DNA of 53,376 bases from positions 1 to 53,376 of the forward strand of contig CAMEYM010000021.1 of the NCBI GenBank assembly GCA_945947575.1, in the 5' to 3' direction. Shown here in pieces: positions 37,389 to 44,768 of the stretch. Source of the stretch: Rhizobium sp. Q54. Its GTDB lineage: Bacteria > Pseudomonadota > Alphaproteobacteria > UBA2966 > CAIVPW01. The stretch's first letter is position 1; each line of letters opens with the position of its first letter. The notes below the pieces were generated by a model. That model saw only the letters and a program-made list of their open reading frames with translations. It did no database searches and had not been told where the DNA came from. Both the position numbers and the translations under genes were made by a program.

Positions 37389-38350
37389 GCGGCCGTCGCC
37401 CAACTCGGTGCGTCGGTACGGATCGCGGCGCGCAGACGCGCCGAACGCGAGCGCGGATTGTCGATGATCTCGGCTGCCGTGGGCTTCTCGGCGCCGCGAT
37501 GCAGGAGGCGGAACGTCGGGGCGCGCTGGGCCACGGCGGGCGGCGCGTGGCGGCTCGGATTGGGCACATTGCCGGAGCGCTCGGTGAGGAACTGCTTCAC
37601 CGTGCGGTCTTCGAGGGAATGGAAGGCGACGACGGCGAGGCGGCCGTCGGGCGCGAGCAACTCTTCGGCTGCGTCGAGACCGCGCTCGAGCTCGCCGAGC
37701 TCGTCGTTCACCAACATGCGCAGCGCCTGGAAGGTGCGCGTGGCGGGGTGGATCGTGCCGCCTTCGCGGCGGCGCTCCGCCGGCGCCGCGTGCGCGACGA
37801 TCTCCGCAAGATCGCGCGTACGGTCTATGCGCCGGCGGCCCCGCATCTCGACGACGGCACGCGCAATACGCCGCGCGTGACGCTCTTCGCCCAGCTTGAA
37901 GAGCGTGTCGGCGAGATCAACCTCCGACATGGTGTTGACGAGATCCTCGGCGCTCGGGCCATCGGTGCCCATGCGCATGTCGAGCGGACCGTCCTTGGAA
38001 AACGAGAACCCGCGCTCGGCCTGGTCGAGCTGCTGGGAGGAGACGCCGAGGTCCATGACGACACCGGCCACGTGCGTGACCCCTTCGCTGCGCAGGACCT
38101 TGGCGGCTTCGCTGAAACGCGCCAGCACGACGCGCAGGCGGCCGCGGTAGTGCGCGACGAGGGTTTGCGCTCGGGCGATGGCGTCGGGATCGCGATCGAT
38201 GGCCCACACGTGCACAGCCGCCGATTCCAACAGCGCGCGGGTGTAGCCACCGTCGCCGTAGGTCATGTCGACGTGCACGCTGCCGTCCTGAGGGCTAAGC
38301 GCGGCGATCGCCTCGCGCAGCATGACGGGGATGTGACCCGAGCTATGCAC
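37385..38350 (-). CDS. rsmH: 16S rRNA (cytosine(1402)-N(4))-methyltransferase
   Basis: 321 residues, ATG at 38348-38350 overlapping the mraZ end by 8 nt. It begins HIPVMLREAIAALSPQDGSV. The SAM motif is VDMTYGDGGYTRALLES, then VWAIDRDPDAIARAQ, VAGVVMDLGVSSQQLDQAERGFSF (shortened here to VMDLGVSSQQLDQAERGF), RAVVEMRGRRRIDRT and a C-terminal AFHSLEDRTVKQFL. It methylates N4 of C1402 in the ribosomal P site; formerly mraW. Confidence 0.97.
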   Translation of the reverse strand: MHSSGHIPVMLREAIAALSPQDGSVHVDMTYGDGGYTRALLESAAVHVWAIDRDPDAIARAQTLVAHYRGRLRVVLARFSEAAKVLRSEGVTHVAGVVMDLGVSSQQLDQAERGFSFSKDGPLDMRMGTDGPSAEDLVNTMSEVDLADTLFKLGEERHARRIARAVVEMRGRRRIDRTRDLAEIVAHAAPAERRREGGTIHPATRTFQALRMLVNDELGELERGLDAAEELLAPDGRLAVVAFHSLEDRTVKQFLTERSGNVPNPSRHAPPAVAQRAPTFRLLHRGAEKPTAAEIIDNPRSRSARLRAAIRTDAPSWATAA

Positions 38351-38822
38351 TCGTGCCTCCCCCGCCGCCGGTCGGCAGCTTGAGGTCTTGGCGCCCTTGC
38401 GCGGCGCGCTGACGCGCCTTCTCTTGCAGCGCCTCGAAGGTAGCCGGCTCCCAGATCTGGAAGCTCTTGCCGCGGCCGACGAACGCTGCCGTCTCGGTGA
38501 TCTTGGCGTGGGCGAGCAGCTTGTCGGGAACGACGATGCGGCCCTCGGGATCGCAGGGCAGCTGCACCGAGTCCGACAGAAAGGAGAACGCGAAGTTGTC
38601 GCGCTCGTCGCTGAACGGGTTGTACTGCTGCTCGATGCCGCTGGTGAGCTTCTCCATCTGCTCGAGGCCCCAACCTTCGATGGCGGGGTGATGGATGGAG
38701 CGGAACAGGACGACGCCGTTGAAGCCCTGCTCGTTGAGGGCAGCGCGAAACGATGCGGGGACGGAAACCCGCCCTTTCTTGTCGACCTTGTTTACGGTCG
38801 TTGAAAGAAATAGTGCCGCCAT
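38343..38822 (-). CDS. mraZ: transcriptional regulator MraZ
   Basis: 159 residues, ATG at 38820-38822. Two SpoVT/AbrB-like halves carry the repeated DxxGR signature: NKVDKKGRVSVPASFRAAL (about 11-29) and LPCDPEGRIVVPDKLLAHA. MraZ forms ring-shaped oligomers that bind TGGGN direct repeats upstream of its own gene and control the dcw operon. Such repeats are found about 90-130 nt upstream here. The C-terminus has a Gly-rich tail. It is the first gene of the dcw transcript. Confidence 0.97.
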   Translation of the reverse strand: MAALFLSTTVNKVDKKGRVSVPASFRAALNEQGFNGVVLFRSIHHPAIEGWGLEQMEKLTSGIEQQYNPFSDERDNFAFSFLSDSVQLPCDPEGRIVVPDKLLAHAKITETAAFVGRGKSFQIWEPATFEALQEKARQRAAQGRQDLKLPTGGGGGTSA

Positions 38823-38900
38823 CCGCGCCCATCCCTCGGACTGACTGGCGGCCGCGCCGGCCGCCCCCGTCCGCGCGCCCCGTGGAGCCCAGCCGCCGGG

Positions 38901-38954
38901 TGGGCGGGGTGGGCTCTTATGGGACTATCTGGGCTATCATGGGATTGCATGGGA
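38901..38954. promoter_or_regulatory. MraZ operator: five TGGGN repeats at 10-bp period
   Basis: TGGGC/A occurs at 38910, 38920, 38930, 38940 and 38950, each copy exactly 10 bp from the next, with an additional TGGGC at 38901 (9 bp off). The repeats read TGGGN on the plus strand, opposite to mraZ. MraZ is known to bind TGGGN repeats separated by 5 bp. They lie just downstream of a minus-strand TTGACG (38955-38960), so bound MraZ would cover the -10 region and start site. Confidence 0.85.
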
Positions 38955-39068
38955 CGTCAATCGAAGCGGGACCTGAGGCGCGTCGATTTGGAGAATTCGT
39001 CTAGTCCTTGTGAAGTCCAAACAATCCTGGACTTTGGGGCCTTCAGTCTGGCCTCCAGCCGTGACTTC

Positions 39069-39083
39069 GTTCCCTCTATGTTC
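39069..39083 (+). promoter_or_regulatory. LexA-type SOS box (GTTC-N7-GTTC)
   Basis: GTTCCCTCTATGTTC is a perfect match to the alphaproteobacterial LexA consensus GTTC-N7-GTTC. It differs from the dinB box at 44754 by one base over the whole 15 bp. It lies 103 nt before rnpB and about 245 nt before mraZ on the other strand. Which transcript it controls is unclear. Confidence 0.6.
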
Positions 39084-39115
39084 TACTTCCATCCACAGGC
39101 AGATGCGGTGCGTCA

Positions 39116-39130
39116 TGGGACCGCATGGGT
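39116..39130 (+). promoter_or_regulatory. second TGGGN pair (possible extra MraZ site)
   Basis: TGGGA at 39116-39120 and TGGGT at 39126-39130 keep the 10-bp period of the main MraZ operator 165 bp away. The pair ends 19 bp before the rnpB -35 element. A two-copy match could be chance in GC-rich DNA. Confidence 0.3.
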
Positions 39131-39149
39131 CGCGGCGGCACGGGCAGCG

Positions 39150-39178
39150 TTGACGGGACCCTCGCCCACCCCTAGCTA
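39150..39178 (+). promoter_or_regulatory. rnpB: predicted rnpB promoter
   Basis: TTGACG (-35, 39150-39155) and TAGCTA (-10, 39173-39178) are separated by exactly 17 bp. The expected start, about 7 nt later, coincides with the first base pairs of the P1 helix of RNase P RNA. Confidence 0.75.
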
Positions 39179-39185
39179 TGCGCCT

Positions 39186-39572
39186 GCGCCAGAGGGCCAG
39201 GTGGCTGCTCTGCCCAGGTTTCCTGCGGCAGGGAGGAAAGTCCGGGCTCCACGGAGACACGGTGCCGGGTAACAACCGGCGGGGGCGACCCCAGGGAAAG
39301 TGCCACAGAAAACAGACCGCCCATCTTCGGATGGGTAAGGGTGAAACGGGGCGGTAAGAGCGCACCGCGCGACTGGCAACAGGAGCGGCACGGCAAACCC
39401 CACCGGGAGCAAGACCGAATAGGAGTGCCACGTCCGGGCGCAAGTCCGGGCAAGCCCGTCTCAGGGCTGAGCATTCGGGTTGGTCGCGCGAGGCGTCCAG
39501 CAATGGACGTCCCAGAGGAATGGCCATCGCCTCGCAAGAGGTACAGAACCCGGCTTATCGGCCCTCTGGCGC
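39186..39572 (+). ncRNA. rnpB: RNase P RNA, bacterial class A
   Basis: The ends pair perfectly as helix P1: GCGCCAGAGGGCC at 39186-39198 with its complement GGCCCTCTGGCGC at 39560-39572. The universal core is present: GAGGAAAGTCCGGGCTCC (39233-39250), the AACCGGCGGGGGCGACCCC region, AGGGTGAAACGG..GGTAAGAGC, and ACAGAACCCGGCTTA (39543-39557). Length, about 387 nt, is normal for class A. It is the catalytic RNA that matures tRNA 5' ends. It diverges from mraZ and converges with the djlA-like gene, whose stop lies 8 nt beyond P1. No U-tract terminator is seen between them. Confidence 0.97.
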
Positions 39573-39579
39573 ACAGCTA

Positions 39580-44737: not shown

Positions 44738-44768
44738 TTGACGCGAGCACCGTGTTCCCTTTATGTTC
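44738..44768 (+). promoter_or_regulatory. dinB: dinB promoter with overlapping LexA box
   Basis: TTGACG (-35, 44738-44743) with TATGTT (-10, 44762-44767) 18 bp on. Overlapping the -10 is GTTCCCTTTATGTTC (44754-44768), a perfect GTTC-N7-GTTC LexA box of the alphaproteobacterial type. Twenty bases separate it from the dinB ATG. LexA bound here would block polymerase, so dinB should be SOS-induced. Confidence 0.85.

Follow-up and report, generated by a model that had tools for sequence, protein, structure and literature searches.

A conserved LexA box upstream of mraZ in Alphaproteobacteria: a candidate promoter-distal operator of the division gene cluster

SOS control of cell division is normally explained by inhibitor proteins such as SulA, YneA and SidA, the last of these, in Caulobacter, being encoded by an inhibitor peptide gene under LexA control. 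The locus described here resembles the SidA system in that LexA is tied to cell division, and differs from it in that the LexA box is accompanied by no such ORF: its neighbour is the own promoter of the division and cell-wall (dcw) cluster, in front of mraZ, the gene for a regulator of dcw. LexA is usually expected to act by overlapping promoters, and SOS regulation by action at a distance has, to our knowledge, not been described for it. The autoregulatory operator of alphaproteobacterial lexA has a GAAC-N7-GAACA core that is found in the mraZ box as well, but this operator sits between −35 and −10, whereas the mraZ box overlaps no recognisable promoter.

LexA has been met upstream of mraZ elsewhere: purified B. 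subtilis LexA binds such a site from the human gut SOS meta-regulon in gel shifts (PMC3998124). The likeness is limited to a LexA site upstream of mraZ, since both the LexA type and the site are different and the excerpted text of that paper gives no conserved promoter-distal geometry; the gut-metagenome and alphaproteobacterial sites are probably of independent origin. In R. sphaeroides, the mraZ region comprises a leader and the small RNA UpsM (PMC5089854) and is bound by NtrX and CenR (PMC7240162, PMC9275681), i.e., regulatory inputs occur in the same mraZ upstream region. NtrX and CenR, unlike LexA, are response regulators, and UpsM is described without mention of LexA or DNA damage. In the main text of a study of SOS timing in Caulobacter, mraZ goes unmentioned (PMC12700426). 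Among the main texts of openly available papers we found no report of LexA at mraZ in Alphaproteobacteria; an earlier listing in supplements or in the alphaproteobacterial and Caulobacter LexA regulon papers of 2004–2008 is possible.

The LexA box and its conservation

The elements on which the argument turns are listed below by their positions in the window, the whole stretch of 53,376 nucleotides that was analysed.

38343–38822, minus strand: mraZ, first gene of the dcw cluster (Pfam MraZ PF02381, 6.2e-20; ORFs)
38910–38953, plus strand: MraZ-type boxes, five TGGG repeats (CCCA when read on the mraZ strand) set exactly 10 bp apart (from the sequence and the class-wide consensus)
38931–38960, minus strand: predicted mraZ promoter, −35 TTGACG (38955–38960) and extended −10 TGATAGCCC (TAGCCC, 38931–38936), from a promoter matrix
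39069–39083, plus strand: LexA box GTTCCCTCTATGTTC (GAACATAGAGGGAAC read on the mraZ strand), exact match, conserved upstream of mraZ
39150–39178, plus strand: probable rnpB promoter TTGACG-N17-TAGCTA, 66 bp beyond the box and without overlap (sequence inspection)
39189–39573, plus strand: rnpB, RNase P RNA class A, here divergent from mraZ (Rfam RF00010, 297 bits)
44754–44768, plus strand: dinB LexA box GTTCCCTTTATGTTC, the comparison site, overlapping a −10 (TATGTT) with TTGACG upstream (from the sequence and the dinB domains)

The first-pass annotation had reported the box at 39069–39083 as differing by one base from that of dinB, and its coordinates and sequence are exact; dinB itself was identified by its IMS domains in a domain search. 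The same annotation called the box a “perfect” LexA site, which is correct for the two GTTC cores, present as an exact GTTC-N7-GTTC direct repeat of the kind found in LexA operators, but not for the first half, which reads CGTTC instead of TGTTC. The Caulobacter LexA consensus, (T/A)TGTTC-N6-TGTTC, has TGTTC in both halves (PMC13384398). Taken on its own, a single site of this kind is not improbable, because the pattern counts are near chance both in the window (three GTTCN7GTTC against 1.38 expected, three being reached by 19 of 100 shuffles) and genome-wide (57 against 55 for the reversed control). With the bare pattern at chance level, the case for the box therefore rests on conservation.

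The genome encodes a LexA (ORF L183) with both the DNA-binding domain PF01726 and the S24 peptidase PF00717 according to Pfam, and this lexA is preceded by its own box, GAACCAAACTAGAAC. Similar boxes are found before dinB and before an imuA-like ORF, the latter reading being made by eye, with no Pfam match. A two-domain LexA together with boxes at lexA, dinB and the imuA-like ORF means that an SOS system with this site type is present. Separately, LexA-type boxes were seen at 1501–1515 in each of two further loci of this genome (L009 and L030), shortly before ribonucleotide reductase and radical SAM genes, which are possibly additional SOS genes.

Regions upstream of mraZ were drawn from the genus, from public genome contigs and from a class-wide draw. 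GTTC-N7-GTTC was found at most 600 bp upstream of mraZ in 49 of the 106 alphaproteobacterial loci with a located mraZ start, in comparison with only 1–6 of 106 for control spacers of 3–6 and 8–13; the core on the mraZ strand is AGAACAtAaaaaGAACAaa. Counted by genome, 34 of the 76 with a LexA domain match (LexA+) have the box and 42 lack an exact copy near mraZ, whereas none of the 16 LexA− genomes has it (Fisher p = 3.5e-4, phylogeny ignored). The site is kept before the same gene and only in genomes with LexA, as a LexA operator should be. Furthermore, where LexA+ genomes lack an exact box, the one-mismatch boxes on the mraZ strand are mostly found 100–180 bp from the mraZ −35, while 15 LexA− genomes have zero one-mismatch boxes on that strand. 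Conservation in close relatives had been proposed at the outset as a check, and the four remaining genomes of the genus do all have the box (5/5 in total). In several close pairs it forms a conserved island amid diverged sequence, and the spacer between box and promoter has likewise diverged among close relatives.

That the box arose by chance, or serves a different regulator with the same direct repeat as its target, would agree with the genome-wide count given above, but is highly improbable: the enrichment upstream of mraZ is specific to spacer 7, the box is confined to genomes with LexA, and the mraZ box has its core in common with the lexA operator. Judged by its sequence and conservation, 39069–39083 is very probably a real LexA site.

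Candidate targets of the box

Behind mraZ on the minus strand are ORFs read as rsmH, ftsL and ftsI. The promoter matrix recognised the mraZ promoter in 111 of 115 loci as TTGACgCCCATataATCCCATGATATCCCA, sigma-70-like and interleaved with MraZ-type repeats, and the TGGG repeats of the window are interleaved with its mraZ promoter in the same way. The first-pass annotation had named three candidates for damage control through the box: the division cluster, rnpB, and an undetected small RNA or peptide. It is most likely the division cluster that is concerned, given the preferred distance of the box from the mraZ promoter across genomes (see below), and an operator that belongs to the mraZ promoter belongs therefore to the dcw operon behind mraZ.

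Control of rnpB, or of an unannotated small RNA or peptide in the mraZ–rnpB gap, is suggested by the window itself, where rnpB is divergent and its probable promoter starts so close to the box, but we consider it quite improbable in light of the other genomes. Most box-bearing genomes have rnpB upstream of mraZ and codirectional with it, placing the box behind the rnpB 3′ end (at 24 to 322 bp across genomes); several have no rnpB signature within about 850 bp, and in one (G007), where ≈ 1.6 kb separate rnpB from mraZ, it is mraZ that the box accompanies. An inverted rnpB was seen, in the loci examined, in no genus but that of the window (G000, G001, G002, and G004), a further member of which (G003) has it codirectional with mraZ, as in most of the class. 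The conserved target is not rnpB, because its orientation and distance vary while the box keeps to the mraZ promoter.

A hidden small gene fares no better. ORFs behind the box on the mraZ strand hardly exceed the length reached in shuffled sequence (26 aa vs. 22 aa) and share no conserved peptide, those on the other strand are not longer, and a SidA-type small hydrophobic ORF was not found. Folding of the gap between the box and the promoter is no better than that of shuffled sequence (z = −0.28), and no terminator-like site is present in 38800–39300, so that the window differs in this respect from an UpsM-like leader with its Rho-independent terminator. The divergence of the spacer between close relatives also argues against both a small RNA and a peptide.

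Position of the box relative to promoters

The GAAC-N7-GAACA core was found in 37 of 41 lexA upstream regions, and in nearly every genome the lexA box lies between −35 and −10, with TTGAC 14 bp ahead of it. As an observation in its own right, the second GAAC is followed after ≈ 20 bp, in most of 36 lexA upstream regions, by an inverted half-site that is conserved, TTTTGTTC (L190–L229, and L183 near 1148–1190). At mraZ, the arrangement is not that of a classical promoter-occluding operator, as the box overlaps neither the −35 nor the −10 of a recognisable promoter. Over 37 mraZ boxes, promoter-like pairs did not on average rise above the shuffled level on either strand (4.3 and 5.3, in comparison with 4.85 for shuffled sequence), and no conserved flanking column was found around the box. 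The lexA control gave 9.8 against 5.6 for shuffled sequence.

These values bear on one of the two main rivals to our reading: a classical SOS promoter at the box itself, missed because it is too weak or resembles sigma-70 promoters too little, which LexA would cover and from which, upon damage, a longer mraZ/dcw transcript or a short RNA would start. Such a promoter would correspond to the normal mode of LexA, as at lexA and dinB, an A/T-rich stretch in the conserved core could act as its −10, and at one mraZ locus (G071) the box does coincide with a promoter-like pair. We nonetheless believe it to be unlikely, as the 37 sites have on average no pair above the shuffled level on either strand and no conserved flank, the lexA control is unmistakable in the same test, and a promoter at the box would not account for the preferred spacing between the box and the mraZ promoter.

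Preferred distance and possible action from upstream

In the window, the box is centred 117 bp ahead of the mraZ −35. Class-wide, most boxes lie 75–210 bp ahead of the −35, and their distances peak sharply at 147–151 bp; 17 genomes fall at 145–151 bp (box centre to −35), or 24 with further genomes added. Taking one entry per family, 16 of 37 distances lie within a single 7-bp window, whereas the highest count among 5000 uniform draws was 10; the thinning goes no further than the family, and spacing inherited from a common ancestor could make the peak too high. In the peak group, the distance from promoter to start has an SD of 33 bp; as this group was chosen by box distance, the SDs of the two distances do not compare fairly. 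In a separate pattern search of 289 genomes, a set that overlaps the first sample, spacers of 122–152, 91–121, and 153–183 bp were found in 24, 9, and 1 genomes, respectively, and the reversed control gave zero matches; of the 14 genomes that were new in the 122–152 bp window, seven were at 147–150 bp. The peak distance is thus replicated although the spacer sequence is not conserved.

Smaller distance groups are found near 117, 127, 138, and 158 bp. The window's clade is off the main peak (117, 106–107, 104, and 81 bp), and boxes of opposite orientation are mainly at 74–87 bp. The best helical period is 10.5 bp in the combined set, and the phase outside the main peak (V-test p = 0.054) is only suggestive of helical phasing.

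Our preferred reading, with a probability of roughly 0.6, is that LexA acts from a distance on the mraZ/dcw promoter, with the box as its conserved, promoter-distal operator. LexA would bind well upstream of the mraZ promoter rather than covering it as at lexA and dinB, and would act from there, the simplest means being a loop or bend of the DNA toward that promoter and its MraZ boxes; upon RecA-triggered cleavage of LexA the input would be lost, and transcription of mraZ and the genes downstream would shift. The sequence itself shows the site, its conservation, its co-occurrence with LexA and its link to the mraZ promoter, as well as the preferred distance and the lack of any recognisable promoter across the box; LexA binding at the mraZ box, the loop and the sign of regulation are what we infer. 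More specifically, the operator may be ancestral, set ≈ 148 bp (≈ 14 helical turns) from the mraZ promoter, with LexA controlling the alphaproteobacterial dcw cluster by looping with that promoter; this version we put forward tentatively.

As to the sign, LexA may modestly repress the mraZ promoter, in which case damage would raise MraZ. Repression is slightly favoured over activation because box-bearing promoters match the consensus no worse than box-less ones, but the match quality is equal at mraZ loci with and without the box and is by itself uninformative on the sign. The second main rival keeps the distant operator of our reading and reverses the sign: in undamaged cells LexA would be an upstream activator of the mraZ promoter, and damage would lower dcw transcription. 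An upstream, promoter-distal position suits an activator, and activation by an alphaproteobacterial LexA is known from R. sphaeroides recA. Activation is doubtful in our view: contact activation does not usually reach as far as the ≈ 180 bp that separate the box centre from the start, and, as a mild point, mraZ promoters are no weaker where the box is present. Control of rnpB, a small RNA and a chance match are less likely than these two rivals.

The same arrangement of box and mraZ recurs in many families of Alphaproteobacteria, and on this account a DNA damage input to division-gene transcription is probable. A LexA input to dcw transcription conserved over many families would, if true, be a second and possibly older route beside the inhibitor proteins. 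The preferred promoter-distal position also calls into question whether covering promoters is the only way in which LexA works, as is assumed, and distal sites may be overlooked by SOS regulon predictions limited to promoter-proximal boxes.

Several other elements were seen in the region. A second MraZ-type pair, ATGGGACCGCATGGG, with a 10-bp spacing lies at 39115–39129, between the LexA box and the probable rnpB promoter, and similar pairs were seen in G002, G003, and G004; as a general loop partner such a pair was rejected, being found on the mraZ strand in only 4 of 55 loci. Between the box and the mraZ promoter, an inverted repeat AAGTCC-N10-GGACTT (39007–39042), not a terminator, is largely kept in G002 and G003 and not in G001 or G004. 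NtrX-type GCA-N9-TGC is not enriched in mraZ upstream regions (5/105, like other spacers). Nine of 105 loci, G015, G166, G170, G187, and G121 among them, have CtrA-like TTAA-N7-TTAA immediately ahead of the mraZ promoter, whereas other spacers give 0–4. Finally, a near-palindrome, GAATTACTTGYAATTC, lies shortly before the mraZ promoter in G043, G163, and G169 (L096, L098, and L121), amid surrounding sequence that has diverged.
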